A stretch of 64,000 nt of DNA from Histomonas meleagridis. Taxonomy: Eukaryota > Parabasalia > Tritrichomonadida > Dientamoebidae. The DNA lies in NCBI GenBank assembly GCA_020186115.1, contig WSYJ01000118.1, forward strand, positions 1-64,000, read 5' to 3'. How positions within the stretch are numbered: position 1 is the first letter of the stretch; the number at the start of each line of letters is the position of its first letter. Under the pieces are notes generated by a model, which was given only the letters and a program-made list of their open reading frames with translations, was not told where the DNA came from and ran no database searches. Shown here one piece after another: positions 205-51,946 of the stretch. Position numbers and translations under genes: made by a program.

Positions 205-1971
205 GTTATGATATCCAGTGAATAGGCCAACATAGTCCTTGTGATTTTTGGTTTTTAGGACACCGTAAAGAACTTTTAGAGGATTAGGAAATAACAAATT
301 CTGAAATGCTTGTCGATTAATTAATCTATATATGGAATGAGATATCTTTGGAGGAAATTTGATCGGTTTATTGTAAATGGGGAAGAAAGTGTATATGGAT
401 TATTGAACACGAAGTAAGGTACTATCAATCTCAATGAACAAACATAGTTTTCATTCATCAGAATAGGGGTGGGAGCTCATTATATTTTGCCTTTCCTGTA
501 ATACATAAGGGATAATTTAGCTATTTTATTTATGACCATTTACAAATGCCAAATTATATGTTGTTTTATAATATAATTTAAATAATTTTCAAATATTATT
601 ATGAAATACCAATTTATTAAAATAAGTTATATATAAAATAAATAAACATCGATGTCGGAATAGGAATTCCTTGGTGGCTGCAAAAATGGCATTTTTTGAA
701 AGAATTGTGATGTGAAAATGATCGTTGCCATATGTCACGTAACTTGATAAAAACTTCAATATTGCACGATTGATACCGGTTGGAAGTGTTTAAAATGTAA
801 ATTTATATTCAAAAGAAAATTGGAATTTATTTTTTATATCTTATCATGCAATTTGTGCTCATGAATTAGTCATGTATCAAATGAAAGTCAGTGTATTCCG
901 GGGGATTGCTCTTTTTTCTCTTCTTCTTGTTCTCTTTTTTTGATTAATTGTCATATGATCTTTATTTCAATTGGATGCCTTTCCATTTCGTCTTCATTTA
1001 ACTTCGAAATACCAATCATGAAATTTACACAATTGTTCTAATCCAGATCTCCGATCTTCTATATTCTTCTTGTCTTTCTATTTCTTTTTATTTTCTTGCT
1101 TTCCTGTAATTCTTTTTTTGGACTTTTTTTCGAACGGATTTTCTTGGTGTCAAGCAATCAAATAACCGTTAAATTCACGGTTATTTTCTACGAGACAAAA
1201 AATTCAATTTTTGAAAAGTGAAAATAACATCATGAATTTTAATTTAATTATGCTGCAAATCAGAAATAAATGTATATATATAAAATAAAAAAAAAGGTCA
1301 TAGGGCAGACCAAGTTTATTTTTTCTTAATTTCGAAATATTTGCATTCCAAAAAAGTGAAGTGAAATGCTTTTTTTGATAATTTTATTGAAAGAAATGAA
1401 ACGAGAAACTTCGAAGTGAGCAAGCACACAGTTTTTTGTTTTTTATAATCCTTAATTCAAAAAATATCTTTTATTATGGATTTCTTTAATGTTGAATGAT
1501 ACCACTAAAATAAAATTCATTAAATGTGAACTATATAATCACAATAAAGAATCTCTTTCTCTTGGAATTCCAAATACAAGCATTCAACATTTTATATATC
1601 TTATGTTAATAGAGTTCACTTTTGACAAAGAAAATTTTCAAGATATATTAACGAATATTTTTATTGAACTTTGTTTGTTTCACCGGCATTCTAGAATAAA
1701 GGCAAAATAATCGGATAGCAATATACTAAATTAAAGGTGTTATTAGATGGTTCGATGTGATTTTTGTTTAATTTTGGCTGTACAGTCAAACCGTTGGCCG
1801 CAAATTTTAGCAAACGATAGACAAATTAAATGAACAGTTTCACAGAAAAAAATTATCGTCATTCTGAAATTTCTATCGTTTCCCGGTTAACGTTATTTTG
1901 ACTGTTGCATTCAAACCATTTGAAAATTTTGTTCACAAAATTGTGAAGGAAAATTTTTCTCAATTTGCAAC
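205..1971. other. AT-rich intergenic stretch, no supported gene
   Basis: I see no convincing gene here. A 73-codon frame at 1489-1710 has no recognisable domain and no clear initiator upstream, so it is not called. Short A and T runs are frequent. AACCGTT-like and GGTTAACG-like words at about 1789 and 1887 lie within 200 bp of the next start codon and may belong to its promoter. Confidence 0.5.
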
Positions 1972-4574: not shown

Positions 4575-5183
4575 TTAACAACATTTTTTGCTTTCTTTCT
4601 CTGGCACCACTTGTTCTATTTGTATTTCAATGTTCTGGTGTAACTTCTGGCGTCTGTTGTCAATCACTTGTTCTGTTAGAGTTTGAAACATCCTTTTGAT
4701 TCCGGTTCCATCTAATGAACTTGTTTCAAAGTATTGAATTCCTAGCTCAGCTGCTTTGTCGTTGGCATCAGCCGTTGATACACTGCGTTGTTCATTTGGG
4801 ATATCGCACATATTTCCACATAAAGCAATAATTGCCTGATCATTAGAACTTGAAACTTCATTATACCAGTTTGTAACAGATTCAAATGTGCTAACCGGGT
4901 TAAACTTTTGTATGTTGGAAGGATTTCCTAATGCAAAAAAAATTATGAAAATAGATGCATAATTATAATAAAATCTAGGAATTGATTTATATGACTCTTG
5001 TCCAGCAGTGTCCCAAATACTTACATCCATTTTCATTCCTTTTACATTCATTTTAATTTCAAATGTATCATTTGCTACTGTTGGTGGAGCAAAAGTATAT
5101 GCTCCTTTAACAAGCCAAAGAGCAGCTGCAGTCTTCCCAACACATGCATCACCAACAAGAACAATGTTTATTCGTTGTTGCAT
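4575..5183 (-). CDS. Rab-like small GTPase
   Basis: The 202-residue protein has the small GTPase motifs: P-loop GDACVGKT near residue 11, switch II WDTAGQE at about 58, a G5-like ETSS at about 153, and a C-terminal KKCC suited to geranylgeranylation. It should therefore act on vesicle membranes in trafficking. The guanine-specificity motif reads GNMCD rather than the usual GNKxD, so the Lys is replaced by Met. The effector region is not close enough to any one Rab to name it. Its start codon lies 177 bp from the divergent RPS2 start. Confidence 0.88.
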   Translation of the reverse strand: MQQRINIVLVGDACVGKTAAALWLVKGAYTFAPPTVANDTFEIKMNVKGMKMDVSIWDTAGQESYKSIPRFYYNYASIFIIFFALGNPSNIQKFNPVSTFESVTNWYNEVSSSNDQAIIALCGNMCDIPNEQRSVSTADANDKAAELGIQYFETSSLDGTGIKRMFQTLTEQVIDNRRQKLHQNIEIQIEQVVPEKESKKCC

Positions 5184-5333
5184 ATGAGCAAAAACTTGCT
5201 CCTGAACGCTTTTTGACTTTTTGATATATCTTTATGAAAATGTTGAAAATTTCGGCTATTTATAAAAATGCCGATTTGTAAACCATTTTTATTTTTGACC
5301 GTTTATTCGGACTTTTGATATGAAAAAGGAATT

Positions 5334-5354
5334 GGCGGTTTTGGTCGGGCCTTT
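5334..5354 (+). promoter_or_regulatory. RPS2 core promoter: M3-like box plus CCTTT
   Basis: GGCGGTTT (5334-5341) fits the M3 consensus of Trichomonas vaginalis. CCTTT (5350-5354) fits the M5 motif that overlaps transcription starts in that species. The ATG lies 6 bp after CCTTT. The word TGGTCG between them recurs in the RPS23 promoter of this window. Confidence 0.55.
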
Positions 5355-5360
5355 AGGAAG

Positions 5361-6161
5361 ATGTCTGAAGTGAAACAAAATGCTGATGGACAACGTCGTG
5401 GCGGAATGCGCGGCCGCCAACAACGCGAGCGCCCACAGAGAAATGCACAAAACAGAGGAAAAGACACATGGCAACCAAAGACTAAATTAGGTCGTTTAGT
5501 TGCTTCTGGTCGTATTACATCTATCGAACAGATTTACCTCCACGCTATGCCAATTAAAGAACCAGAAATTATTGACAGACTTTTAGGTGATAACTTAAAG
5601 GATGAAGTCATGAAGATAATGCCAGTTCAGAAACAAACACGTGCAGGTCAACGTACTCGCTTTAAGGCTGTTGTTGCTGTCGGTGATTATGATGGACATG
5701 TTGGTCTTGGTATCAAAACATCTGCCGAAGTTGCTAACGCAATTAAAGGCGCTTTAATTTATGCCAAGCTTTCTATTCTTCCAGTACGTCGTGGTTATTG
5801 GGGTAACAAGATCGGACAGCCTCACACTGTTCCAAATACAGTTACAGGAAAATGCGGATCTGTTAGAGTACGTCTCATCCCAGCTCCACGTGGTTCTGGA
5901 ATTGTCGCAGGTTCAGTTGCTAAGAAGCTCTTAGCTATGGCAGGTTTCGAAGATCTTTTCACATCTTCAATTGGTAACACAAAGACATCTGCAAACTTCC
6001 TCGTTGCAACATACAAAGCAATAGAAGCTACGTATTCATTCCTTACTCCTGACCAATGGGAGCAGAAGGAACCAGAAGCACATCCATTTGTTCAATATAG
6101 TGATATCCTCGCAAAAGACAACGAATTCAAAGTCACAAAGGTAAATATCAATTTGGAGTAA
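5361..6161 (+). CDS. RPS2: 40S ribosomal protein S2 (uS5)
   Basis: The 266-residue protein matches eukaryotic uS5 across its length. A basic Arg/Gly-rich N-terminus is followed by [11 protein letters not shown], the S5 double-stranded RNA-binding motif ([20 protein letters not shown]), the [26 protein letters not shown] segment in pieces, and a C-terminal domain with APRGSGIVA. It is part of the small-subunit decoding and mRNA-entry region. Length is normal for the family. Start is fixed by the M3/CCTTT promoter just upstream. Codon use is richer in G and C than the neighbouring accessory loci, as expected for a highly expressed gene. Confidence 0.97.
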
Positions 6162-6622: not shown

Positions 6623-8044
6623 ATGAGCTTCTATGGGAGAACTACAACAAATTATCGTGGGCATAGTTATGTCCAACCAAATTCATTTTTACCAAAACAA
6701 AAAGAATACTTGTCAAAACTTAAATCAATGCAAAAAATTATTTTTGAATTAAAAAATGAAAACATAGAAGAATCAGTCAGTTCGATGTTAGGTTTTTTTG
6801 ATAAAGAGTTTTTAGATTCAATGAATATTATTGTTTATCGATTAATTTATTCATCAGTTCAATCGCTAAAGGAAATCGATGTATATCTTAAATATTTACA
6901 ATTACTTGAAACAAAAGAAAAAGAAATTTATAAAGATGAGGAATATTCAGAAATTATTCAGCTTTTTTCTGAGTTTTTAAAAAAAAATAGATCACAAGAA
7001 AGTTATTACATTCTTGAAAATATGATTGAACAAAAATTAATTCCATCTGATTTCATGACTGGTCTGAGAATTCCTTATTTTGTTCATTATGAAACGAAAG
7101 AAGAAATAAAAAAGTATATAAACACAACTTATTTTTATTCCCCTAATGATGTAAAATTTATTTCTGAAAATTTTGAAGAATTATCAAAGAATAATTGGGA
7201 ACTTCATAAGAAATATATTAAAGAAGGACACAGTCCAAGTGAAATTGCGAAAATAATTCGAAATGATGAAGTAGATAAACTTCAAGAAATATCATCTAAT
7301 ACAAAATTTAATTTTAATCAAACAATTGAGCCATCACTTTATGAAAGATGTTCTTTTATTAATAAGCAAAGTGTTACATTAATTGATTATGCAGCATTTT
7401 TTGGATCAATTAAATGTTTTAAATATTTACTTATGAATAATGCAAATGTATCAGACACAGGTAAATATGCAGTTGCATGTGGGAATGAAGAAATCATTCA
7501 TTTATGTGAACAAAATCATTCATCATTTGAAGGTGCATATGAAACAGCAATTGAATTTCATCGAAATAAAATTTTTCAATATCTTTATGAAAATAAAATA
7601 CATACTTCTCCATCTTTCATTGTACCATGTATGAAATCATCTAATTATGAAATTATATCATTTTTTGAAAAACAATATATTTCTGAGTCTGAAGCTCAAC
7701 AATCATTTGAAGTTAAAAATATATTTATTGTTAAATATTTCTTAGAAGGAAATGTTATTTCAAATAATCTTCTTTTTGCTTTAATAAATACACAAAATAT
7801 TAAACTTATTAAATATGCTCTTAATCAACAAATTCAAGATATAAATGCTAGTGATAAATTTTTAATTAATCATTTAATATTTTTTAATATTTGGTGGATT
7901 TTATTCATATTTTTTGAAACTATTCTTTCTATGGCATTAAGTTTTGGCTTAACTGAAATTGTTGAGATACTTTTAAATAAAAAAGATCTTCATTTATATG
8001 GTAATTATTTTTGTTTATTATTTATATTGTCTTTAATAATTTGA
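6623..8044 (+). CDS. DUF3447-type ankyrin protein, locus A, 5' open frame
   Basis: The 473-codon frame opens a much longer locus that runs to 12140. Residues about 30-180 are a helical family-specific head. Residues about 195-330 contain the trichomonad DUF3447-type core (NNWELHKKYIKEG, EIAKIIRNDEV, LIDYAAFFGSIKCFKYLL, then GNEEIIHLCEQNH). Ankyrin-like units follow. The frame ends only because the spacer between ankyrin units (63 nt at about 7857, then 74 nt) brings a stop, not because the gene ends. Homologous spacers stop the paralogues at 27642, 40680 and 50543 in the same way. Function is unknown; ankyrin repeats usually bind proteins. No signal peptide is seen. Confidence 0.75.
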   Translation: MSFYGRTTTNYRGHSYVQPNSFLPKQKEYLSKLKSMQKIIFELKNENIEESVSSMLGFFDKEFLDSMNIIVYRLIYSSVQSLKEIDVYLKYLQLLETKEKEIYKDEEYSEIIQLFSEFLKKNRSQESYYILENMIEQKLIPSDFMTGLRIPYFVHYETKEEIKKYINTTYFYSPNDVKFISENFEELSKNNWELHKKYIKEGHSPSEIAKIIRNDEVDKLQEISSNTKFNFNQTIEPSLYERCSFINKQSVTLIDYAAFFGSIKCFKYLLMNNANVSDTGKYAVACGNEEIIHLCEQNHSSFEGAYETAIEFHRNKIFQYLYENKIHTSPSFIVPCMKSSNYEIISFFEKQYISESEAQQSFEVKNIFIVKYFLEGNVISNNLLFALINTQNIKLIKYALNQQIQDINASDKFLINHLIFFNIWWILFIFFETILSMALSFGLTEIVEILLNKKDLHLYGNYFCLLFILSLII

Positions 8045-11000
8045 AATTTTATATTATTTGGCATTTATCATAGTTATTTTATATTGCGCTTTCAAATGCA
8101 GTAAACAAGAATAATTTTGAAATTTTCAAGTCAATCCTGGAAAAAATGGATGAGAAATTTGAAGAAAGTTTTGTCTATTTGGTTAATATAGTTTTTTTTA
8201 TAAATAGATGGGATTAATCTCAATAATTTTTTAAGATATGTATAAAAGCAATCCAAGATGATAGATATGATATTCTTAAGTACTTATTGGATCGAAAAAA
8301 AATCAATTTAAAATTAAAAGATATTTCTCTATTTTCCTTTCTGTTTACTGAAAATTGGTGTATGTTAATAATAATTGGTGTTCATTTAGAATACTTGAAA
8401 CACTTTTAATTTCTGCTGCAAAATATAATAGAGTTAAAATAATGGAGTTACTCATAACACTCAAAGAAACTGATGTGAACGCTAGTGATATTTTTTTAAA
8501 TATAAAGATGTTTATTCGAAATATGACTTGTAAAAATTTAATATTTGATATTCGAATTCAATATTTCATACAGATCTAATGATTGCTTCAAAATTAGGAA
8601 ATATTGAAAGTGTTCAATTTCTCACAAAATTAGATAAAGTTGATATTAATCTTCAAAATTTTTCTTTATTAAATATTATAATGTTTAAAAATATTTGATA
8701 AATTATATACATATTATTTGAAACAGCGCTTATGCTTGCTATTCAAGAAAACAAATTCGAAGTAATCCAAGAACTTATTAATCAAAGTAAAATCGATATT
8801 AATGAAAAAAATATTATTAAATATCATATAAAATTTTTGAAACTATTATACTGTTCATATGAAAAATTTGGATTATATTCTTTAATTTTGAAACAGCCTT
8901 AACCATAGCAATAAAGGGGGAGAAAATTGAAATTGTTAAAATGTTGCTTGAACACAAAAATATTGATGTTAATGCAAAAGAAGTTTAATATTTTTGTTTG
9001 AAGTTTGTTTTTATATTTCCATATTTGTTTAATGATTTTGGAAATTGTTTAATCAATTTTATACACCATTAATGGTTGCAAATGGATGTAATAATATAGA
9101 AATAGCTAAATTACTTCTAGCACATGATAAAATCGATATTAACAACAAAAATTTTTGTTAATATCCTAAAAATTTGGAATTTTTAGAAATGTTTTCAAAC
9201 TGTATTAATTTTAGCAGCTAAAACTGGAAACTTTAAGTTTGCACAAATTCTTCTTGAAAATAAAGAACCTGAATCAAATATAAAACTTATTGAAATTTAT
9301 TTTAATTTTTTGAGGTTCAATTTATTTATTTGAATCAAGCATTCCTAATAACGAAGCGCATTTCAACGAAAATAAAAAATTTCACAAACAAAAAATCGAT
9401 ATCAATTTAAAAGATATTAATTAGTTATATTCAATATTTTCTTATTATATAAGAAGTTAAATATTAACTCTTGGAATATCTTCACCTGATTTAAAACAGC
9501 ACTTATAGTAGCAGCTGAGCTAAATAATTCTTTAATTGTTCAATTACTTCTTTCACAAAAAGGAATTGATATCAATGCTAGAGATATTATTTCATAATTT
9601 TTAATGTTTTTTCATCTAACTTTCTATTTGAATGAATTTTTTGGAATAATTTTTAAATATTTAAATCTGCACTTATGGCATCAGAATCTAAAAATAAAAT
9701 TGGAATTGTTAAGATGTTACTTGCAATGAAAGGAATTGATGTTAACACTCGAGACATTTCATTGATAATTTTAATATTTATTTAAGTATTTCAATGTTTT
9801 TATATAAAATTTGGAATTTGCTTTAATTTTTTTACTACAGTATTGAAAAATGCATTGTTCAATGATCACAAAGATATTGTAAATTTATTAATGGAACAAA
9901 AAGGTATTAATATCAATGCTAAAAATATTATTTTGATATTTTTAATATTGAAATCAAATATTTGATTTTTTCTAAATATTTTTGGTGTTTTCTAAAATGA
10001 TTTGATACTATATTAATTAGTGCAGTTAATAAAGAAAAGAAAGATATTGTGGATTTCCTTTTATCGCAAAAAGGAATTGATATCAATGCTAAAAATATTT
10101 ATTTATTTAATTTAATTTATATTTTTCTTATTTGTGGTTTCAAAATGAAATTAGGAATTTGAGTTTTTATCTTAGGACAGCACTTATGAATGCATGCGTT
10201 ATTGGTAATTTATTTGGAGCTTGTATTTATTTAAGATTACTTCTTAATAGAAAAGAAATAGATATTAATGCAAAAGATATTTATAATTTTTATTTATTGT
10301 AAATTTAATTAATTTCATATTTAAAAATAATGTTTGGTATTTTTTAGATATAGTTATGACAGCATTGATGTATGCATGTATAAATAATATATATAATGTT
10401 AAAACACTTCTTAATCACAACAGAATTAATATTGATATAGTGGATATTATTTTACAATTTATAATGATTGCGTGAAAGATTTTTAATTTGAAAATTATTT
10501 TTGGGAATTATTTGATCAATTTCGAACAGCATTTATGTATGCATGTGAATATTGCAGTACCAAAATTGCTTCAACACTTTTTAAAATAGGAGCTGATATT
10601 AATTTTAAAGATGTTAACTCAATTTTTTTAAAATTTTTTATTAATACATAAAATTTCAAAAATATATTTGGAACTTATTTTTGTATTTTAAGACGGCGCT
10701 TATTTTAGCAATCAAAGGGTGTCAATCAGATATTATAGAATTTCTTCTTCAACAAAAAGACATAAATGTTAATATACAAAATATTTTAATTTTTATTTAT
10801 AATTTTTCTATTAATAATTTAATGTTTTAACATTATTTTTGGTATTTGTTATTAATATTTAGAACAGCACTAATTATTGCTTCTAAAAAAGGAAACATGG
10901 AATTTATCAAATTACTTCTTCAACATAAAGAACTCGATTTAAATCTACAAGATAAATATATATTTTTATTAATGTTTTACTAAAAAAATTGGTCTTCAAA

Positions 11001-12140
11001 ACTAATATTTGGTATAAATTCATAATATTTTATACAGCACTTATGTATGCATCTCGATATGGGTATTATGAAATTGTTGAATTACTTCTTGAAGAAGGAG
11101 TTGATTATAACACAAAGAATATTTATAAATTTTGTTTGTAATTTGTTTTAATAAAATGAAGTTTCAAAATAACTTTTGGAGATAGTTTATATAATATGAA
11201 ACAGCATTTACAATTGCATGTGAAAAAGAACATATTGATATTGTTGAATTACTTCTTTCACAAAAAAGAACAAATATTATTACAACTAATATTTATTTTA
11301 TTTATTTATTATTAATTTCATTTATTATTTGTTTTAAAATGTTATTTGGAATTTAAATATTTTTAATGAAACAGCTTTAATGATTGTAGCACAAAATGGT
11401 AATGTAGAAATAATGAAAATTCTTCTTAATAAAAATATTTTTGAAATAAATTCCAAAAACGTATTTTTATATTATCTAGAATTTGTTTAATATATTTTGG
11501 GTTTCATTTAATAAATTGGAATTTATCAAATATTAAAGAAACAGCACTTATACTTGCATGCAAAAAAGGAAATGAAGAAATTGTTAAAATGCTTTTGGAA
11601 CAAAAAGGAATTCAAGTTCATACGAAAAATATTTATTTTATTAATTTAATGATTGTTTTTATAAATTAATGATCAAATATTATATTTGGAAGATAATTAA
11701 AATATTTAAAACTACACTTTTTATTGCAGCTAAAAATGGAAACAAAAAAATTGTCAGTTTACTACTTGAAATTAAAGGATTCGAAATTAATGCAAGAGAT
11801 ATTTCATTTAATTATTTGTAGTTTAATTTGATCATTTCTTGTTTTAATAAGATATTTGGAATTCATCCCATCTATATAATACAGCATTAATGGTAGCATG
11901 TGAAAAAGGAAAAAAAGAAGCAGTTGAAATTCTTTTAAAACAAGAAGGAATTGATCTAAATGCTCGAAATATTTCTTTATTTATCTTAATAATTATTAAT
12001 AATACTTCGAATTTTATAATCATATTTAGAATTTAAATTTAATATTTTTTAATGCACTTATGATTGCATGTGAAAATAATCACCCTGATATTGCCGAATT
12101 AATTCACAAGCAAATCGATCTTAATTTTAAACGTAAATAA
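7857..12140 (+). repeat. Ankyrin-unit array of locus A with fixed-length spacers
   Basis: About 27 ankyrin units (TALxxA...EIVxLLLxxKGIDINAKD) alternate with AT-rich spacers. Of 25 spacers I counted (from after the Asp/Asn codon of NAKD to before the Thr codon of TAL), 17 are exactly 80 nt, for example 11801-11880 and 11971-12050. Others are 63, 63, 74, 77, 81, 81, 46 and 47. Spacers begin mostly with ATTT, have (G/A)TTTCAAAAT near position 41-50 and TTTGG near 55-59. They lack GT...AG ends. Unit reading frames remain open apart from one unit near 9350 with an apparent frameshift. The last unit ends in its own TAA (12138-12140) after NFKRK. Confidence 0.85.
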
Positions 12141-16430: not shown

Positions 16431-16808
16431 TTAAGAATAATCTAAAGTCTTGTTACCTTCAGGGTTCTTAGTTTCTTTTTGTTTTGTTATTAATTTGCAA
16501 GGGTAAAGACAATTTCCAGCACCACAATCACAGATGAATTGATGATTATTTGGTGCAACAACTTCATAGACATCATGACCTTTGTGACATACTTTTTCAC
16601 ATTTAGAACATATGCAATTGGGAGGAAGGACGCCACATGTGTTACATAAGTAATAATGTTTTTTGTGTACTTTTTGATGGTTGGCAATTTCATAAGTACA
16701 ATGTTTAGATGTGACATTAATTCCTTTTTGTGCAAACAATGATTTAACAATTTTCATGTCACCTCTTTTAGATGCTTTTCGAAGTGCTTCAATAAATATT
16801 TTGAACAA
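16431..16808 (-). CDS. Terminal ankyrin unit fused to a UBR-type zinc finger, locus B
   Basis: The frame encodes one ankyrin unit (EALRKASKRGDMKIVKSLFAQKGINV) that runs without a spacer into a UBR box: CTYEI, YYLCNTCG, CICSKCEKVCHKGHDV, then FICDCG and a final Cys. The order of Cys/His ligands (C, CxxC, CxxC, CHxGH, CDCG) matches the N-recognin UBR zinc finger, which binds destabilising N-terminal residues. The frame ends in TAA at 16431-16433. Upstream, an 80-nt spacer separates it from the preceding ankyrin unit, so it is the last exon-like block of locus B rather than an independent gene. The start Met shown by the open frame lies inside the spacer and is probably not used. Confidence 0.7.
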   Translation of the reverse strand: MFKIFIEALRKASKRGDMKIVKSLFAQKGINVTSKHCTYEIANHQKVHKKHYYLCNTCGVLPPNCICSKCEKVCHKGHDVYEVVAPNNHQFICDCGAGNCLYPCKLITKQKETKNPEGNKTLDYS

Positions 16809-18444
16809 TTTTCAAATATTATTTAGATATATCAAATTATTAAATTGAATTGATAATGAAATAAATAAACATCTAAAGCATTAATATCTATTCCAGCTCT
16901 TTTAAGATGTACTTTAACTATTTCCATGGAATTAACAAATATTTCTTACATTAATACCAATTCTTTTTTGTGCAAGAAGAGGTTTGTCTATTTCACCAAT
17001 TTTAGAATTTATAAGTGCTGTATTAAATAATTCAAATAATTTCCAAATATTGTTTTGAAATAAAAAATGATTAAAATAAATTTCAAATTAAATAAATGTA
17101 TATCTTTATAAATAATATCAATTCCTTCTTGTTCAAGAAGTAATTTAACTATTTCTGTATTAGCACTCCAAGATGCTTTCATAAGTGCTGTTTTAAATAA
17201 TTTAAATAATTTCCAAATATTATTTTGAAATAAACAATACATCAGTAACTCTGTTTGCAGGTTTCCAATTTCCAAAATTTCTTTCTCATCAAATATACAA
17301 AATAACCATCAAATCATATTTTCATTTTCCAAAAACGATAAAATTTCATAATTTCCATATTTTCTACAGGCTTCAATAAGTTGAATCTTTATCTGTTCAT
17401 TAGAAGAAATTTTCTGCGTTGAACTATAACGAGAACCATATCTAGACGCACCATTTGAAGTAGTTCTATTTCCATCTATTTTTTCTAGTTTGTTTTCATA
17501 AATATAATGAAAGATATCATTTTGATGAAATTTAATTGCTGCTTTCAATAACCCTTTAAATTGCGCATGATTTTGCACACATAAATGAATGATTTCTTCA
17601 TTTCCACCTGCAACTGCATATTTACCTGTATTTGTTAACTCAGAATTATTTAATAATAAATATTTAAAACATTTAATTGATCCAAAAAATGCTGCATAAT
17701 CAATTAATGTAACACTTTGCTTATTAATAAAAGAACATCTTTCATAAAGTGATGGCTCAATTGTTTGATTAAAATTAAATTTTGTATTAGATGATATTTC
17801 TTGATGTTTATCTACTTCATCATTTCGAATTATTTTCGCAATTTTACTTGGACTGTGTCCTTCTTTAATATATTTCTTATGAAGTTCCCAATTATTCTGT
17901 GAAAGCTGTCTATAATTTGATGTAAATGCTCTTTCAATTTTCTGATCAGTATTATTGCTTTCTCCAGATGTATTACTGGGGCCCCATTGGTTACCCTGAT
18001 TATTATTTCCTCTATATGTTGTACAAGTTATAACTGTGAATTATTTCCTTTATCTTTTTTATAATGTATAAAATATTTTGATTGAATATTTTTAACTATA
18101 TCTTCATCTGCTAATTGTTGTTGTATCATTTTATCAAGTAAATAATATGCTTCTTGTGATGTAATTCCTAAAATATAATTTTTAAATTATGCTTGGATTA
18201 GTTTGAATTATTTCTTCTTCTTTCTTTTGAATTCCTTTTAAATAATCAAAATATAAATCATATGGGGTTTGTTGAGATAAAAATGCTGAATATACTAAAT
18301 TACATTAAAAGAAAAGTAGAAATTCTTATCGAAAAAATTCATTGTTTGTTGGATGGAAAGATCTAAATTTTCTTTATTTAAGCTAAATATTATGTTTTCA
18401 AGATTATTTAATGTTTCTGTGTTTGGGGAAGTGGAAGTGTTCAT
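16809..18444 (-). pseudogene. DUF3447/ankyrin locus B, decayed N-terminal part and array
   Basis: Read on the minus strand, an ATG at 18442-18444 begins MNTSTSPNTETLNNLE, followed by family sequence with several stops and frameshifts (for example TAG in place of a conserved Gln at about 18300). The DUF3447-type core LIDYAAFFGSIKCFKYLL is present but broken into frames. A frame around 17309-17640 is open. The array has spacers of exactly 80 nt between its intact units, but near 16920-16960 a deletion joins a spacer directly to the middle of a unit. The UBR block at 16431-16808 still looks intact. Probably a pseudogene, or a locus of which only the 3' part survives. Confidence 0.65.
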
Positions 18445-27027: not shown

Positions 27028-27860
27028 TTATTCTTGATCAAGAAGCAACAGCATTATTTCTTTGTGTCCATTTGCACATGCATATTCAATTGCTGTTTTA
27101 AATAAATAATTTAATTTCCAAATTTTGTTTTAAAATACCTAAAAATATTTGAAATAAACATTAAACAATTTGAATAATTATCTTTAATATTAATATCAAT
27201 TCCTTTTTTATTAAGAAGTAATTTAACTATTTCTGTATAACCACTTTGAGATGCCAATATAAGTGCTGTTCTAAATTATTATGAAAATTTCCAAATTTTA
27301 TTTTGATATTTCAAATCATAAAAACAAAAAATATCGATAGAATTCACATCAATTCTATTATGTTCAAGAAGTAATATTACTACTTCTTTATGACCATTTT
27401 GAGTTGCATTTGTTAGTGCTGTTTGGAATAATTTAAAGAATTTCCAAGAATGAAATATAAATTGCATGTTAATTATATAAATATAGAATAAAATAAATAT
27501 ATATCTTTTTTATTAACATCAATTTCTTTTTGCTTCAGAAGTAATTTCACAATATCAACATAACCTTTTATAGATGCTGAAATTAGTGCAGTTTGAAATA
27601 ATTTAAATAATTTCCAAATGTTATTTTGAATTATCAAATCTTTAAAAAAGATATTGAAGAAAACAAAAAAATATTTTGCGCATTAAAATTAATTCCTTTT
27701 TGTTCAAGAAGGAATTTAACCATTTCAGTATAACCCGATTGAGAAGCATAAATAAGTGCTGTATTAAACAATTTAAATAAATTCTAAATATTAAATAGAA
27801 ACCCAAAAATAATAAAATAAATTTTGAATATAAAAAATCGATATCTTTAACATTAACATC
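27028..27860 (-). repeat. Ankyrin-unit array of locus C with spacers
   Basis: Six ankyrin units are separated by five spacers, which I counted as 80, 80, 80, 63 and 83 nt. The units are open and keep TAL...GHKE(V/I)V.LLLEQ...ID(V/I)N. The final unit ends LLLLDQE and a TAA (27028-27030), almost the same ending (LLLEQE stop) as locus E. The array belongs to the gene whose 5' part is 27642-28991. Confidence 0.85.
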
Positions 27861-28991
27861 AGCTCCTTTTTGTTCTAAAATGTATTTCAAAAGTTCCCAA
27901 TTTCCTGATTCAGAAGAAAACAAGAGAACATATTTAGGAAGTTGATTTTCCTTCAGAAAATGTTTAACAAGAAATATATTACCATTTTTTGCTGATTCAT
28001 TTATAATATCATCATTAATTTTCATTCCTTCCTTCTGCAAAAATGAAAAAATTTTATAGTTATGATATAAAATACATAACATTCCGAATTCTTCTAAATC
28101 ATTAATTTTTTCTAATTTGTTTTCATAAATATATTTAAAGATCTCATTTCGATGATATTCAATTGTTATTTGATATGAGTTTTTAAACGATGAATGATTT
28201 TGTTTACACAAATGAATGATTTCAAGATTTCCACCTGCAATTGCATATTTACCTGTGTTTTCTACTTTTGCATTATTCATAAGTAAATATTTAAAACATT
28301 TAACTGCTGAAAAAAATGCTGCATAATCAATTAAAGTGACATTGTTTTGATTAATAAATGAACATCTTTCATAAAGTGATGATTTAATTTTTTGATTATA
28401 ATCAAAATCATTTTGTGATGATATTTCTTGAAGCTTTTTTACTTCATCATTTCGAATTATTTTTGCAATTTCTAATGGATTAACTCCTTCTTTTATTAAC
28501 TTCTTATGGAGTTCCCAATTATTATTTGATAAGTCACTTAGAGAATAAGTTTGTTTAGGAAAATAAGTAACTCTTTTTCTTACTGATTCATAATGTAAAA
28601 AGTATGGATGTTGAATATTTTTTAATACTTCTATCCCCACTAGATTATTTTGGATTAGATTCTCAATGATATAATATGATTCTTGAGTGCGCCTTCTTAA
28701 AAGAAAATCAGTGAATACATTTAATATATCAGATTTAATATTATTGTTTTCTTCAAATTTTTTTATCTCTTTAATAAAATCAATATATACTTCAACGTCA
28801 ACTCTTCGTACGGCAAAAGAAAAATATATCATTTGACTAACAATTAAATTAAAAGAATATGAATAATTAATATCAAATTTATTATTTATTGTACCCATTG
28901 CAACTGAAATATTTTCCTCAGTGAGATCGAAAATATTTTGTTGAATCAATTGAAGAGTTTCCCATTCATTTGAATTTTGGGTTTTATTCAT
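27642..28991 (-). CDS. DUF3447-type ankyrin protein, locus C, 5' open frame
   Basis: The frame from ATG 28989-28991 (MNKTQNSNEWETL) encodes about 449 residues. It has the family head, then SNNNWELHKKLIKEGVNP, EIAKIIRNDEVKKLQEIS, LYERCSFINQNNVTLIDYAAFF and GNLEIIHLCKQNHSS. Ankyrin-like units follow up to DVNVKDI, after which the first spacer breaks the frame. An upstream extension of the frame to 29084 is possible but aligns with nothing in the paralogues. It is head-to-head with the Vta1-like gene (111 bp between starts), so both may share a promoter. Function unknown. Confidence 0.75.
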   Translation of the reverse strand: MNKTQNSNEWETLQLIQQNIFDLTEENISVAMGTINNKFDINYSYSFNLIVSQMIYFSFAVRRVDVEVYIDFIKEIKKFEENNNIKSDILNVFTDFLLRRRTQESYYIIENLIQNNLVGIEVLKNIQHPYFLHYESVRKRVTYFPKQTYSLSDLSNNNWELHKKLIKEGVNPLEIAKIIRNDEVKKLQEISSQNDFDYNQKIKSSLYERCSFINQNNVTLIDYAAFFSAVKCFKYLLMNNAKVENTGKYAIAGGNLEIIHLCKQNHSSFKNSYQITIEYHRNEIFKYIYENKLEKINDLEEFGMLCILYHNYKIFSFLQKEGMKINDDIINESAKNGNIFLVKHFLKENQLPKYVLLFSSESGNWELLKYILEQKGADVNVKDIDFLYSKFILLFLGFYLIFRIYLNCLIQHLFMLLNRVILKWLNSFLNKKELILMRKIFFCFLQYLF

Positions 28992-29102
28992 CAAGCAAAT
29001 AATTAACGTTCGACTGACATTTTTTATTATTTTGGGGCACACCGTTTGTGAATTCCGACGGTTTAACGGTGATTTTATAAGCAAACAAAGTCAATTTCAT
29101 AA

Positions 29103-35740: not shown

Positions 35741-36840
35741 TTATTTGGTTTTACTCTTTTTCTCATGAAATAATTTTACGATTTCTATGTAACCCTTTAC
35801 AGATGCAATTGTAGGCGCTGCATAAAATAATTTAATTAATCTCCATGTATTATTTTGGAACAAAAAATAATCAAAATTTTTATCAAATCAAATCTATAAA
35901 TATCTTTAACATTAATATTAATTCCTTTTTGTTCAAGAAGTAATTTAACTATTTCCGTGTGATGAATTCTAGTTGCTAAATTAAGTGCTGTTTTAAATAA
36001 TTTAAATAATTACCAAATATTATTTTGAAATATAAAATTATTAAAACAAATACCAAATAAAATAAATAAATATCTTTAGCATTAATATTAATTCCTTTTT
36101 GTTCAAGAAGTAATTTAACGATTTCTGTATGTCCTTTTGAAGATGCACAAATAAGTGCTGTATTAAATAATTTAAATAATTTTTAAATATTATTTTGAAA
36201 TAATAAATTATTATAACAAATATCAAATAAAATAAATAAATATCTTTAGCATTAATATTGATTCCTTTTTGTTCAAGAAGCAATTTAACTATTTCTGTAT
36301 GACCATATTCAGATGCATATTTTTGTGCTGTATTAAATAATTTAAATAATTTCCAAATATTATTTCGAAATAATAAATTATTAAAACAAATATAAAATAA
36401 AATATTTAAATATTTTTAGCATTAATATCAATTCCTTTTTGTTCTAAAATGTATTTTATAAGTTCAATGTTTTCTGACTTTGTAGAAAATAGAATTATAT
36501 TTTTTGGGAATTGATTTTTTGATAGGAAATATTTTATAAGATATAAATTTCCAATTTTAGCTGTTTTATTCATTATTAAGAAACTAAATAATTTCTAAAT
36601 ATTTTAATAATGTTTGGGTTATATTTATTGATTTCTTCTTCTTTGAGTTTAATATTCTCTATAAAATTTATATAAATATAATTTAATTCTTTCTTTGAAT
36701 CAAATGCATAATAAACTAAATTACAAATTATCAAATTAAATGAATATGGAAAATTTAGATCAAATTATTTCATTGTTTGTTCATTTGATATTTCAAAATT
36801 TTCTTGTGTTAAATTAAATATAATTTGTTTGAGTTTTATA
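35741..36840 (-). pseudogene. DUF3447/ankyrin locus D, internally deleted
   Basis: On the minus strand, family head sequence (about 36600-36840, with several stops) joins directly to the last pre-array unit (NLYLIKYFLSKNQFPKNIILFSTKSE), so the DUF3447 core is missing. Five ankyrin units follow with four spacers, and all four spacers count exactly 80 nt. The last unit is diverged (AAPTIASVKGYIEIVKLF) and ends HEKKSKTK then TAA (35741-35743). The array units are well preserved although the head is ruined. Confidence 0.7.
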
Positions 36841-40679: not shown

Positions 40680-42023
40680 ATGGAAAAAAAGAATTTTATA
40701 AACATCTGGCAGAATGGATGGGAAATCCTTACTTCAATCACAAAAAAAGTTTCTGAACTAAATGAAGAAAATATTGAATATTCAATAAATTCGATAATTA
40801 ATAATTTCGAAGAAAATTATTCGTTATCTTTTAATATAATTATAAGTCAAATTGTATTTTTATTTTATTCTTTGAGAAAAAATAACTTCCAAATTTATTT
40901 TGAATTCTTGAAGAAAATTGAAACATTTGAAGAAAACAACAAAAGCAAATCTAAAATATTTGATGTATTTACGCGTTATCTTCTAAAACAGCGAAATGAA
41001 GAATCAAAATATCTTCTTGAAAAGATGATTAAAAACAATTTACTTGAACCCAAAATCGTTCAAAATGAAGAATATGTTTATTTTATACATTATATGCCAG
41101 AAAACGAAATCGATAAATTACGTTTACAAATTTCTTTCGCTAAAAATCCTTACTTTATAGAAGATAGAGTTTCCCCATTAGGATCTGAGCAATTAAAAAG
41201 ATTTTTTGCACATTTTGAGGAACTTTCAGCAAATGATTTTGAACTTCATAAAAAATTAATTAACGAAGGAGTTAATCCAAATGAAATTGCGAGAATCATT
41301 CGAAATGATGATATCGAAAAGCTTCAAGAAATATCATCACAAGAAAATTTTGATTTTAAACAATGTATTAAACCATCAATATATGAAAGATATTCATTTA
41401 TTAATCAATGGAATGTTTCATTAACTGATTATGCAGCATTTTTTGGATCAATTAAATGTTTTAAATATTTGTTTTTAAATAATGCAAAAATGATTTTTGT
41501 TCGGAATGCAATTGCAGGTGGAAATGAAGAAATATTTCACATATATGAACAAAATCATTTATCATTTAAAGATGCATATGAAACAGCAATTAAATATCAT
41601 CGAAATGATATCTTTAAGTATATTTACGAAAACAAATTGGAAGAAGTATACAATGATGATATATTAAGAACATACAGTTTAGAAGAATTAGGAAAAATTT
41701 GTATTTTGTATCATAATTATGAAATATTTTCATTTTTACAAGAAAAAGGAATGAAAATTAACAACTATATTATCAATGAATCATCAAGAATTGGAAATTT
41801 GCTTCTCACTAAATATTTTCTTAAATTTTATCAAATTCCAAATGATATTTTAGTTTTCTCAGCAGAATCAGGAAACATTGAACTTGTTAATTATATCTTA
41901 CAGCAAAAAGGAATTAATATTAATGCTAAAGATATTTATTTATTTTATTTGATATTTGTTTTAATAATTTTATATTTCAAAATAATATTTGGAAATTATT
42001 TAAATTATTTAATACAGCACTAA
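40680..42023 (+). CDS. DUF3447-type ankyrin protein, locus E, 5' open frame
   Basis: The 447-codon frame has the family head, NDFELHKKLINEGVNP, EIARIIRNDDIEKLQEIS, SLTDYAAFFGSIKCFKYLF and GNEEIFHIYEQNHLS. Ankyrin-like units follow to GININAKDIY. The first spacer (41934-42013, exactly 80 nt) then breaks the frame; the last residues LFYLIF... are spacer translation. The real locus appears to run on to the stop at 42893-42895. Start is fixed by the TCACTTT initiator. Function unknown. Confidence 0.75.
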   Translation: MEKKNFINIWQNGWEILTSITKKVSELNEENIEYSINSIINNFEENYSLSFNIIISQIVFLFYSLRKNNFQIYFEFLKKIETFEENNKSKSKIFDVFTRYLLKQRNEESKYLLEKMIKNNLLEPKIVQNEEYVYFIHYMPENEIDKLRLQISFAKNPYFIEDRVSPLGSEQLKRFFAHFEELSANDFELHKKLINEGVNPNEIARIIRNDDIEKLQEISSQENFDFKQCIKPSIYERYSFINQWNVSLTDYAAFFGSIKCFKYLFLNNAKMIFVRNAIAGGNEEIFHIYEQNHLSFKDAYETAIKYHRNDIFKYIYENKLEEVYNDDILRTYSLEELGKICILYHNYEIFSFLQEKGMKINNYIINESSRIGNLLLTKYFLKFYQIPNDILVFSAESGNIELVNYILQQKGININAKDIYLFYLIFVLIILYFKIIFGNYLNYLIQH

Positions 42024-42895
42024 AATATGCATCTGAATATGGTCATACAGAAATAGTTAAATTACTTCTTGAACAAGAAGGAATTGATGTAAATGCTAAA
42101 GATTATTTATTTTATTTAATGTTCGTTTTAGTAATTTTCTGTTTCGAAATAATATTTGGAAATTATTTAAATTATATGATACAGCACTTATTATTGCGTC
42201 TTTTTATGGTATAATTGAAATAGTTAAATTACTTCTTGGAAAAGAAGGAATTGATGTAAATGCTAAAAATATTTATTTGTTTTATTTCCAATATATTTTA
42301 ATAATTTGGATTTTCAAAATATTATTTGGAATTTTTTCAAATTATTTTTTACAGCACTTATGAAAGCAACTGATAATGGTCATAAAGAAATTATTAAATT
42401 ACTTCTTGAACAAGAAGGAATTGATGTAAATGCTAAAGATATAATTTGTTTTAATAATTTTATATTTCAAAATAATATTTGGAAATTATTTAAATTATTT
42501 GATACAGCACTTAATTTAGCAACTAGATATCATCACACGGAAATAGTTAAATTACTTCTTGAACAAGAAGGAATTGATATTAATGCTAAAAATATAATTT
42601 ATATTAATAATTTAATATTTCAAAATAATATTTGGAAATTATTCAAAATATTTAATACAGCACTAAAATATGCATCTGAATATGGTTATACAGAAATAGT
42701 TAAATTACTTCTTGAACAAAAAGGAATTAATATTAATGCTAAAGATATTTATTTATTTTATTTGATATTTGTTTTAATAATTTTATATTTCAAAATAATA
42801 TTTGGAAATTATTTAAATTATTTAATACAGCACTAGAATATGCATCTGAATATGGTCATACAGAAATAGTTAAATTACTTCTTGAACAAGAATGA
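41934..42895 (+). repeat. Ankyrin-unit array of locus E with spacers
   Basis: Six spacers (80, 77, 80, 63, 63, 80 nt) alternate with six units. Where the spacer is 63 nt (divisible by three) the frame reads through two units (42306-42836), inserting KDI..FNNFIFQNNIWKLFK-like text between them. Units are close to identical (TALKYASEYGHTEIVKLLLEQ), so this is the youngest array in the window. The last unit ends LLLEQE and TGA (42893-42895). The pogo-like element starts 18 bp beyond. Confidence 0.88.
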
Positions 42896-47756: not shown

Positions 47757-50700
47757 TCATAGACCTTTTAACCTTATTATTTTTCGTAGTTCAACTTCTT
47801 GGATAGATGAATTTAAAAACTTACCTACAAAAATATCCTTATGATTAAGAAGCATTTCCTGAATTTCGCGAACTCCGTTAGCTAAATGAAGTGCTGTTTT
47901 AAGTTAAATCAAAAAATTCCAAAAATAACAATGAAACTTGATATTATTAAAAACAAATATTTTATAAAATATTAAAATATTTTTTGCATTTACATCTATT
48001 CCTTTTTGCTTAAGAAGTAATTCGACAATTTCTATATGTCCTTTAGAACTTGCAACTATCAGAGCTGTATCAAGTATAAAAACTAAATTCCAAACAATTT
48101 ACTAAAAAATTTTCAAATTAAACAAATTAATGTTTTTTGCATTAAGATCAATATCTTTCATTCTAATCAATATCTTAACTATTTCAAGATGTTTATCCAT
48201 GCAAGCCAACATAAGAGGTGTATAAAACAACAAAAATAAATTCCAAATTTTTGTTTAAAACTTTAAATTATTTCTATAAATATTTTTTGAGTTAAATTAA
48301 CTGTTGTAATATTTACATCAACATCTTTTTGTTTAAGAATTAATTTAGCTGTCTCTGAATATCCTAATTTACATGCACATGTAAGCGCTGACCAATGTAT
48401 TTTAAACAAATTCCAAAAATTTAATGATAACTTTAAAATAATAAAATAAAGTACAAGTAATTAAATCAAACTTCTTTAACATTAACATCTATTCCATCAA
48501 TTTTTAAAAGTAATCTAACGATTTCTGTGAAGCCAAATCCACTTGCTAACAATAATGGCGTCCAAACACTTCATAATAAAATCCAAAACATTAATGAAAA
48601 CATCAATTCTTTTATATAAACTTTAAATAATATTGAAAAATATCTGTTGAATTGATATCATATTGATTTTGTTCAAGAAGAAATTCAACAATTTCATCAA
48701 ATCCATTTCGACATGCACTTAAAAGAGGTGTTTTATTTATTTAGAACAAAATCCAAAAATAACTTAAAAACATTAAAACTATTAAACAAATTATAAAATT
48801 AATCATTAAATATCTTTGATTGTAACATCTGTGTCTTTATGTGTAAAAAGTAATTTAACAATTTCATAATAACCATATCTACAAGCAATTAAAAGAGGAG
48901 CACAAAATTTTGGTAATTAATATCAAAAAATGATTTTAAAATGAAAAAGAATGAAATACTTTTTGATCAAAATAGTTAAACATATTTTGTATTAAGTTCA
49001 ATTAATTCAAATGTAAGAAGAAATGCAACAACATCAGTACAACCATTTTTGCATGCCCAGAAAAGTGCAGTTCCAAAAATTATTTTCGAATTCCAAATAA
49101 TTTTATAAATCATCAAATAATTCTATAAAATATTAAAATGTATATATAAATATCTTTCTTATTAATATCAATTCCTTCTTGTTCAACTAATAATTTAACA
49201 ACTTCAAGATTTCCTGTTCTACTTGAGCATATCAAAGGTGTTATATAATATTTTAATAAAATCCATGTTTTCTTTATAAATACTAAAATACAAAAACAAA
49301 ATCTAAATAAATGTTATTGATATCACTAAGATTAATATCGATACCATCTTGTTCAAGAAGTATTTGAACAATTTCTTTATTTCCATTTTCACATGCAAAC
49401 ATTAAAGCAGTAAAATATATAAGAATGAAACTCCTTATTATTTAAAAAAAACGAAAAATTATCAAAATAATTATTAATAAAATTGATTTTATATCATGAT
49501 CATTTATGTTTATTCCATCTTGTTCCAGAAGTAACTTTACAATTTCAATATGATTATCTCTACACGCATACATTAATGCTGATCCATATACATTAAAACA
49601 ATTCCAAATATTAATATAAAATATAAAATTTAATAAATTAACATGATTTTATATAAATAAATATCTTTTGCGATTGGGTTAATTCCTTCTTGATCAAGAA
49701 TCATTTTAACTACTTCTGTGTTTTCTATTTCATATTTTACAAATAATTCATTTTCGAAAGATTAAAATAAATATCAAAAATAAATATTAAACATCAAATA
49801 TTTAGAATTAATATCTGGTTTTTTCTGTTTAGCAATGTTTTTCATAGAACAACCTTGACATGCACATATCAATGCAGTAGAAAATAATTTGATTAAATTC
49901 CAAAATTTAAAGATAAACTTCAAATTTAAAAATTTAATATCAAATATTATACATAATCATTACGAGCATTAATATTAATTCCGTTTCGATTTAGAAGAAG
50001 TTTTACAATATCAAAATGTTTATTAATACATGAAAACATTAAAGGTGTCCAAAATTATTGAGATAAATATCGAATACTTGAATTTAATATTAAATATTTT
50101 AAATGTATATTAAAAATATAATTTAAATATTTTTTGTATTTAAGTCAAGATCATTTCGATTAAGAAGTAACTTAGCAACTTCTATTAAACCATCTTCACT
50201 AGCAATTGAAATCGGTGACCAAAATATATTAAATAAATTCCAAATATTTTTATAATATTCTAAATTTCCATAACAAAAATTAACTAATTCAAAAAAACAC
50301 TTTTAGTATTTACATTAATTCCTTCATGATTAAGTAAGAGCTTTATAATTTCTAAATGTCCATTCTCAGTAGCATGCATAATCGGAGACCAAAAAATAAA
50401 ATTTAAATTCCGAATATTAAAATTAAACTTTATTCTTCCGAAAAAAACATCAAACCAAAATTTTAAACATTTTTCAAATTAACATCAATTTCTTTATGTT
50501 CAAGAAGTAATTTAACAATATCTATTTTATTATCTCTACTAGCTATAAGAAGTGGTGTAGAAAATCAAATGAACAAAATCCAAATATTAGCTTAAAACAT
50601 CTTTTAACAAAAATCAATGTGAAATATTTTAAATAATAATCTTTGGTATTTACATCGATTCCATTTTGTTCAAGAAGCAATTTTACAATTTCGATTTGAT

Positions 50701-50760
50701 TATCGATACATGCTTTCATTAATGGAGATTCAAATAATACATTTTTTGTATTTAGTTTAA
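47757..50760 (-). repeat. Ankyrin-unit array of locus F with spacers
   Basis: About 18 units lie on the minus strand. Of five spacers counted (near 50560, 50390, 50215, 48225, 48065), four are exactly 80 nt and one is 63. In contrast, the junction between the first two units (50729-50740) has only 12 nt, coding VLFE between NTKN and SPLMKA, which is the normal four-residue ankyrin loop. The last unit (TALHLANGVREIQEMLLNHKD) continues IFVGKFLNSSIQEVELRK and stops with TGA (47757-47759). Confidence 0.82.
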
Positions 50761-51946
50761 TGTCTTTTTGTTTAAGAACATATTTTACTAATTCAATGTT
50801 TCCTGAAGAAACAGAATTAACTAAAATTTGTTTTGGCAAGTTATAACTTTTAGAAAAATATTTCAATAAAAATAAATTTCCGATTTTTGCACATTTTTTA
50901 ATAATTGATTTTTTAACTATCATTCCTTCTTTTAATAAAAAAGAAAGAATTTCGAAATTATTATTTATGATACAAGTTTTTCCTAATTTTTTAAGTTTTG
51001 TTGAGTTTCTTTGAAAAGTTTTGCTTTGATAAAGATAATAAAAGATATCATTATGATGGAATTCTATTGCTATTTCAGGAGAATCTTCAAACGCTGCATG
51101 ATTTTGTTCACAGATATGTATAATCTCAATGTTTCCACCCGCTACAGCAAATTTTCCTGTATTTGTTAAATTTGTTGAACCATTCATAATTAAGAATTTA
51201 AAACATTTAATTGAACCAAAAAATGCTGAATAATCAATAAGCGAAACATCGTTTTGATTAATGAATGTAAATTTTTCATAAAGTGATGGTTCAATTATTT
51301 GATTAAAGTTAAAGTTTGTTTGTGTTGATAATTTTTGAAGTTTTTCGATTTCATCATTTCGAATAATTTTTGCTATTTTTAAAGGATTAATTCCTTCATG
51401 AACATATTTCTTATGAAGTTGCCAATCATTTTCTTCTAAGCTTTTAATGTTAGAAATGAATTGTTGATAAAAAGGATCTTTGTTTTGTAAACATTTGATT
51501 TCTTCTTTTGTTTTATAATGCGCAAAATATAATGAATTTTGATTGGAAATTAAATCAGATGAAATTATATTTTGCTCAATCTTTTCCTCAAGAAGATAAT
51601 ATGATTCCGATCTTTTAAGCGATAAAAGAAAATGCAAAAAAATATCAATGATTTTATTGTAACTTTGAATGTTATATGTTTCTTCTTTAGTTTGAACTGA
51701 TTGCAAAAAATCAAAATATGTTTTTGGTTCTTTCTTTTGGGAAATAAAAGATGAAAATATTAATTTACAAATAATAAGGTTAAAAGAATATATATAATTT
51801 AAATCAAGTAAATTTATGGTTGATTCAACTGATGCTTGGATATTAGTCTCATCCAAATTTAAAATAATAGTTTCAAGGCTTTCACATATTTGTAAGTTCT
51901 TGTCTTCTTGGTTTTCAACAATATCTTCTTCTGAATTTTGGAGCAT
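50543..51946 (-). CDS. DUF3447-type ankyrin protein, locus F, 5' open frame
   Basis: The 467-codon frame begins MLQNSEEDIVENQEDK. Family landmarks follow: ENDWQLHKKYVHEGINPLKIAKIIRNDEI in pieces, LYEKFTFINQNDVSLIDYSAFFGSIKCFKFL, GNIEIIHICEQNHAA, and two full ankyrin units joined without a spacer. The frame ends in spacer-derived FLHHFL. A possible Inr (TTCATTAAC) lies about 30 bp upstream. The locus continues as an array to 47757. Function unknown. Confidence 0.75.
   Translation of the reverse strand: MLQNSEEDIVENQEDKNLQICESLETIILNLDETNIQASVESTINLLDLNYIYSFNLIICKLIFSSFISQKKEPKTYFDFLQSVQTKEETYNIQSYNKIIDIFLHFLLSLKRSESYYLLEEKIEQNIISSDLISNQNSLYFAHYKTKEEIKCLQNKDPFYQQFISNIKSLEENDWQLHKKYVHEGINPLKIAKIIRNDEIEKLQKLSTQTNFNFNQIIEPSLYEKFTFINQNDVSLIDYSAFFGSIKCFKFLIMNGSTNLTNTGKFAVAGGNIEIIHICEQNHAAFEDSPEIAIEFHHNDIFYYLYQSKTFQRNSTKLKKLGKTCIINNNFEILSFLLKEGMIVKKSIIKKCAKIGNLFLLKYFSKSYNLPKQILVNSVSSGNIELVKYVLKQKDIKLNTKNVLFESPLMKACIDNQIEIVKLLLEQNGIDVNTKDYYLKYFTLIFVKRCFKLIFGFCSFDFLHHFL

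Follow-up and report, generated by a model that had tools for sequence, protein, structure and literature searches.

In Histomonas meleagridis, a parasite of poultry, genes for ankyrin-repeat proteins carry spacers of 80 nucleotides (nt) between consecutive repeat units, and the 64,000-nt stretch analysed here (positions 1 to 64,000 of contig WSYJ01000118.1, assembly GCA_020186115.1; the window) contains several of these genes, one of which is referred to as locus A. In an ordinary ankyrin repeat four residues, x-x-Gly-x, lie between the Asp that ends one unit and the Thr-Ala-Leu of the next. The 80-nt spacer is a composite of four 17-nt elements and four linker codons, and the constant, repeated length is 17 nt. 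Judging by the selection visible in the sequence, the linker codons are very probably decoded and the 17-mers skipped; on balance we favour excision from the RNA as the way in which the 17-mers are left out.

The alignment of 56 distinct 80-nt spacers revealed a 20-nt rhythm. Spacer positions 1-17, 21-37, 41-57 and 61-77 are occupied by AT-rich 17-mers similar to each other, and the triplets at positions 18-20, 38-40, 58-60 and 78-80 (slots 1 to 4) are unlike them: GGA is found at 58-60 in 44 of the 56 spacers and the other three triplets are variable. Since the ordinary ankyrin linker is x-x-Gly-x, the spacer was read as D [17] x [17] x [17] G [17] x followed by Thr-Ala-Leu, so that 80 = 4x17 + 4x3. 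The four slots give linkers such as NDGW, KYGW, EDGY and DDGD, and thus the ankyrin consensus DxxGx directly before Thr-Ala-Leu. Straight translation through the spacer was rejected, an in-frame stop being present in element 3 in 42 of the 56 junctions.

The sequence-only reading of this DNA had claimed an invariant spacer length, and this proved real. Since the family was fetched in part and the locus identifiers overlapped, rows were de-duplicated by sequence, and 403 profile matches in the fetched loci were reduced to 191 distinct complete junctions, 157 non-array and 34 belonging to an array class described below. Exactly 80 nt was found in 136 of the 157 non-array junctions; of the 52 junction matches in the window, 39 were complete and non-array, and 35 of these had 80 nt, the remaining four having 63, 77, 81 and 83 nt. 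The junction profile was built from 80-nt junctions, which biases these counts towards 80 and loses shorter forms. A regular-expression search not tied to 80 nt gave 137 unit pairs, 61 with 80 nt and 10 with 63 nt, the remaining lengths coming partly from mis-set unit ends; 13 of the 22 pairs in the window had 80 nt. The earlier counts of 34 in 49 spacers overall and 17 in 25 in locus A were not reproduced. Twenty window junctions of 80 nt aligned without gaps, and the mean identity of 13 window spacers was 57 %, in agreement with the earlier statement that the spacers differ at about half their positions.

The length variants follow the same grid. The 63-nt spacers have the form x [17] x [17] G [17] x, with element 1 absent and the first codon adjoining Asp, and are explained by the absence of one 17-mer because 80 - 63 = 17; in the ten found by the regular-expression search Gly was at slot 3 in nine and none of the 40 slots was a stop codon. 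Variants differing by codon steps (eight of 83 nt, two of 77 and one of 86) occurred among the 157 non-array junctions, and in four of five parsed 83-nt spacers the extra codon lay beside a slot or next to Asp. Free parsing recovered the exact alternation of codon and 17-mer in 40 of the 61 spacers of 80 nt; the parser penalised stop codons and was therefore excluded from the stop test.

The choice of slots was evaluated by scoring all 1,028,790 ways of taking four ordered triplets from 80 nt against a profile of natural linkers. With a small profile (25 in-frame linkers from 16 database proteins retrieved by the N-terminal domain alone) positions 18/38/58/78 ranked first for the 56 junctions. 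They also ranked first with a large profile (708 linkers, 120 ankyrin proteins) for overlapping sets of 56, 134 and, in the window only, 35 junctions; the 120 proteins came from a search whose query contained the joined linkers of one gene, a mild circularity absent from the small-profile test. Gly occupied slot 3 in 114 of 134 distinct junctions, as compared with 80 % of the 708 natural linkers.

No stop codon was found in the 536 slots of these 134 junctions (26 locus identifiers), about 36 being expected, the junctions being related by unit duplication so that neither these stop counts nor the rates given below are independent. In 300 column shuffles slots 1-3 contained on average 15.1 stops (minimum 8) against 0 of 402 observed, and slot 4 contained 20.9 (minimum 14) against 0 of 134. 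The windows one base before the slots had 90, 56, 13 and 68 stops, with 87.6, 50.7, 19.5 and 63.0 expected. At the third base of the slots A predominates; the exceptions are triplets beginning with TA or TG, which an A would turn into a stop.

Codons and elements also evolve at different rates. In 558 related pairs the positions of slots 1, 2 and 4 differed at 0.48, those of the Gly slot at 0.12 and those of the elements at 0.135, a rate about 3.5 times higher in the three variable slots than in the elements; seven of the nine fastest of the 80 spacer positions are slot positions (slots 1, 2 and 4 versus elements, p = 4e-6). In 304 pairs of 80-90 % identity the elements differed at 0.118 and the third positions of the units at 0.189, therefore the elements themselves appear constrained. 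A set of diverged junctions, 23 with 92 elements from two window loci picked by eye (locus A and the gene at 48-50 kb), retained Gly in 21 cases and had no stop in a slot. Their elements were 54 % identical, 44 % being expected from composition, and retained the R-TTT...ATTT ends: position 1 was A or G in 89 %, positions 2-4 were T in 77-89 %, position 14 was A in 68 % and positions 15-17 were T in 74-91 %. Elements of the same slot were hardly more alike (0.56) than those of different slots (0.53), which makes the shared ends resemble a functional signal.

A second class of linkers consists of tandem 20-mers, each comprising the 17-mer ATATGTTTTAATAATTT and one codon. In these arrays none of 261 slots was a stop codon (25.1 expected; 0 of 290 with looser matching), and the window one base earlier contained 124 stops against 125.6 expected. 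Their length ranges from a single element (locus L058) to 32 in a row (locus L049). The linker of L058 (plus strand, 1371), N-A-K-Y [17] G T-A-L-H, is the shortest form seen. In L049 (minus strand, 4804-5424) 32 successive 20-mers with no stop in 32 slots form one linker, and a longer repeat period inside this array suggests recent duplication.

Several results weigh against the reading of the spacers as codons alternating with skipped 17-mers, or against excision of the 17-mers from the RNA. The small profile ranked the grid fourth both on the 43 junctions outside the window and on the 13 window junctions, and the ten 63-nt spacers placed it 102nd (small profile) and 41st (large profile) of 341,055 choices. 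Some windows away from the slots were stop-poor as well, the largest such deficit listed being 15 stops against 23.5 expected, at window 44. In 18 of the 61 spacers free parsing read the same letters in an alternative way, and when the ankyrin profile was aligned to the DNA with free skips, only 6 of 369 skips had 17 nt, fewer and longer skips being preferred because the cost per skip was flat. About six or seven of the 157 non-array junctions (64, 71, 75 and 79 nt, and three of 81 nt) are off the grid; in those viewed by eye (79, 64 and one of 81 nt) the odd base lay in an A/T run, so they represent assembly errors or real damage. Element-like 17-mers, scoring no lower than the lower quartile of the elements themselves, are also found in ordinary coding sequence (CDS): there are 18 in 24.5 kb of other CDS in the window and 14 in 4.8 kb of CDS for the family's N-terminal parts, and hence sequence alone cannot specify removal and context beyond the 17 nt must mark the elements. 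By the slot evidence the elements lie at codon boundaries (phase 0), a placement that splicing does not require; either a single origin followed by the copying of 20-nt units or a machine that is codon-aware would be compatible with it. Finally, protein P0003 from an ENA contig keeps the elements, as described below, and would speak against excision if that contig is RNA-derived.

Each of the four linker codons x-x-Gly-x is thus preceded by a 17-nt AT-rich element, an arrangement strongly supported by selection. In the mechanism that we propose, the elements would be ultra-short intron-like sequences that are removed singly from the RNA, so that the single-codon exons are joined in frame. A length-keeping process would hold them at 17 nt without GT..AG borders or the trichomonad branch and 3' motif, and the cutter might be a relaxed spliceosome or another enzyme. 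More tentatively, Histomonas may possess a system that is distinct from canonical splicing and dedicated to measuring and omitting 17-nt elements (by extrapolation thousands of them) between single ankyrin-linker codons, the alternation of codon and element recurring dozens of times per gene and the elements multiplying as 20-nt units (17 nt plus a codon) that each lengthen the linker by a codon.

The lack of splice signals, asserted earlier for whole spacers, was borne out at the level of the elements: among 224 elements from 56 junctions none had both GT at the start and AG at the end (19 start with GT, 2 end with AG), and none contained GTATGT or CTAAC. Ordinary introns are present elsewhere in the genome. 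Three kinase genes (L062, L063 and L064) have introns with the GTATGT 5' motif and the CTAAC branch motif, of the form GTATGTTTTT ... CTAACACATAG (two) or ACTAACACACAG (one). Across 43 Mb there are just three exact copies of ACTAACACACAG, and GTATGT N5-35 ACTAACACACAG has no match genome-wide. In-frame stops were found in 7 of 133 kinase-domain rows, and two of these, fetched with one truncated row, led to ordinary introns; in no row was a domain split into two parts with 17 nt between them, and no elements were seen in these rows. Together with a U6-like match of 43.7 bits, slightly short of the family cut-off (44), the kinase introns indicate that an ordinary spliceosome is likely present. 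The virulent H. meleagridis assembly was annotated by AUGUSTUS trained on a transcriptome and is reported to have 573 introns, at most one per gene (PMC8529796). A protein kinase domain at G000:C78:376002-376739 lies within an open frame for which a length of 22,955 amino acids is listed.

The sequence-only reading had proposed one length-constrained element, removed or bypassed. The constraint and the joining of units are supported, and the single 80-nt element gave way to four 17-mers with single codons at 18-20, 38-40, 58-60 and 78-80. One excised intron of about 77-80 nt per spacer, its inner triplets being non-coding, is scarcely credible, even though slot 4, which adjoins Thr, holds much of the stop signal: slots 1-3 are free of stops and slot 3 keeps its Gly, the 63-nt form puts slot 1 directly after Asp, and the array slots, mostly inner, are stop-free too. 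An intron spanning the whole 80 nt was rejected on the inner slots without stops. Dead arrays, with neutral spacers and with units kept open only by gene conversion or by duplications of recent date, would account for the only moderately low ratio of nonsynonymous to synonymous differences in the units (pN/pS, 0.545), for internal stops in 10 of the 104 rows of the N-terminal search and for the single family protein under the NCBI Histomonas name. We nevertheless regard them as improbable, as the earlier reading also did, because neutral DNA would not retain the slot-3 Gly and the stop-free slots at about 54 % element identity, and a related protein from another source has the same 80-nt layout.

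For translational bypassing, with the ribosome hopping 17 nt after each linker codon, speaks the location of the elements at codon boundaries, which is what a codon-aware machine would need. Hopping over many short inserts is known in yeast mitochondria, with take-off and landing codons not always matched (PMC5009743). Ribosomal hopping nevertheless fits poorly and is unlikely: take-off codon and landing triplet are identical in only 10 of 536 elements and have the first two bases in common in 14 of 536, no shared hairpin was predicted (0 pairs for 20 window junctions), the 32-element array would demand 32 successive hops one codon apart, and the contigs appear nuclear from their size and gene content. 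As to folding, single-sequence energies equalled those of shuffled sequences (-7.4 vs -7.5), and RNAalifold is uninformative for the 56 junctions, since real data and every shuffle alike scored zero. Removal at the DNA level, with an element-free processed copy in some cells or in another genome compartment, would explain weak RNA signals, and ciliates do excise short AT-rich elements from DNA; it is a very remote prospect, since no element-free family copy was found in the loci read, a weak argument as the genome was read in part. The 13 element-free linker rows (some repeated) obtained in a general ankyrin search all come from loci L002 and L004-L008.

To our knowledge the codon-separating 17-nt elements have no counterpart, and no description of such elements was found in the open-licence literature. 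The genes resemble ordinary DxxGxTAL ankyrin repeats (the trichomonad DUF3447 family) in the unit, the linker consensus and the N-terminal domain, and differ from them in that the linker codons are split by 17-mers. Tiny introns of nearly fixed length are the closest likeness: those of Stentor have 15-16 nt, are spliceosomal, occur in very many copies and are mostly GU..AG (PMC9505925), and type B introns of Trichomonas vaginalis have 23-25 nt, all 63 introns of that species being GU..AG (PMC12316389). The Histomonas elements have a fixed length of 17 nt (80 = 4x17 + 12 in 136 of 157 non-array junctions), and differ from both in lacking the GU..AG pair, in their codon-boundary positions and in the single-codon exons. 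With the bypassing elements of T4 gene 60 and Magnusiomyces mitochondria (PMC5009743) they share the property of being short, frame-breaking inserts kept out of the protein, whereas the rare take-off/landing matches, the missing shared hairpin, the nuclear-looking contigs and the runs of 1-32 inserts one codon apart set them apart. Like the non-conventional introns of euglenids, whose removal route is not known (PMC4770533), they have non-canonical borders; euglenid introns pair their ends in the RNA, whereas no shared pairing was predicted for the 20 Histomonas junctions.

The family is large. The N-terminal domain of locus A was found at at least 101 other genomic places with 47-58 % identity, besides second pieces of two of them, and many of its database relatives carry Pfam PF11929. 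A strict pattern based on element 4, ATTTGGAATTT N{8,24} ACAGCA, occurred 213 times and its control 0 times, with exactly 16 nt between the halves in all but five of the matches listed (by eye). The elements are also present in another ankyrin gene, L004, and a search for 17-mers outside the junctions (29 sources, inspected by eye) returned array copies, the ankyrin linkers of L004, L050 and L058 and scattered matches, with no clear non-ankyrin gene carrying elements. The ENA-contig proteins P0001-P0015 belong to the same family and are at most about 60 % identical to the fetched loci, which make up roughly half of the family. In P0003 the alignment with L014 extends through the spacer, so at least this relative retains the elements; its back-translation by hand has Gly at nt 58-60, then 17 nt and a His or Tyr codon, with Thr-Ala-Leu next permitted, not forced. 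A database search with the joined reading returned no near-identical transcript product among the 120 listed of 4280 proteins at the cut-off, the best identity being 60 %. Among 69 proteins retrieved, with candidates restricted to 0.55-1.75 times the query length, P0016 is the sole one with the NCBI Histomonas name, and the genome has more than 100 such N-terminal domains. One ankyrin-domain protein appears in a proteomics table of PMC10063853, a paper on H. meleagridis.

The grid of codons and 17-mers is a sharp, testable prediction. If confirmed, it would mean that very many 17-nt elements devoid of splice signals can separate one codon of a gene from the next. Either a new RNA-processing or decoding route or the limit of a spliceosome's abilities would then be revealed, and the result would suggest that a large gene family of this parasite is missed or truncated in the present annotation. 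The features of the window are collected below.

Table. Ankyrin-family features and junctions in the window, with the junctions of locus A given individually where located by profile
Position	Strand	Feature	Basis
6623..7855	+	Locus A, N-terminal DUF3447-like domain and first ankyrin segment	Open reading frame (ORF) open up to Asp
7856..7918	+	Locus A, first junction, 63-nt form, AAA [17] AAT [17] GGA [17] GAA, linker KNGE, element 1 absent	
7919..12140	+	Locus A, array of about 26 ankyrin units with element-bearing linkers, TAA after last unit	Unit count from hand list
9416..9495	+	Junction, four 17-mers with AAT GAA GGA AAA, linker NEGK	Profile search
9586..9665	+	Junction, linker NSGK	Profile search
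10097..10176	+	Junction, linker NVGR	Profile search
10279..10358	+	Junction, linker IHGM	Profile search
10613..10692	+	Junction, linker KKGK	Profile search
10954..11033	+	Junction, linker NGGY	Profile search
11121..11200	+	Junction, linker VEGE	Profile search
11291..11370	+	Junction, linker IFGE	Profile search
11461..11540	+	Junction, linker RWGE	Profile search
11631..11647	+	Example junction 11631-11710, element 1 (17 nt)	
11648..11650	+	Same junction, slot codon 1, AAT, Asn	
11651..11667	+	Same junction, element 2 (17 nt)	
11668..11670	+	Same junction, slot codon 2, AAT, Asn	
11671..11687	+	Same junction, element 3 (17 nt)	
11688..11690	+	Same junction, slot codon 3, GGA, conserved ankyrin Gly	
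11691..11707	+	Same junction, element 4 (17 nt)	
11708..11710	+	Same junction, slot codon 4, AAA, Lys, adjoins Thr of next unit	
11801..11880	+	Junction, linker VLGN	Profile search
11971..12050	+	Junction, linker NRRF, Gly replaced	Profile search
16782..17233	-	Second locus, three junction matches	Profile search
27089..29084	-	Family gene, N-terminal ORF 27642-29084, five junction matches	ORF and profile search
35812..36423	-	Array, four junctions DFGY, GYGK, DIKN, YIGN	Profile search
40680..42836	+	Family gene, six junction matches, two of 63 nt (IYGD, INGN; element 1 absent)	
47889..51946	-	Family gene, 14 junction matches, diverged elements on same grid	
571..650	-	Lone junction match near window start, apart from other loci	Profile search

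Elsewhere in the window, the putatively E1/ThiF-like ORF at 34348-35136 on the minus strand ends at a TAA inside a stretch that stays in frame (SIVGTIQA*QAIAIITGVGDKL).

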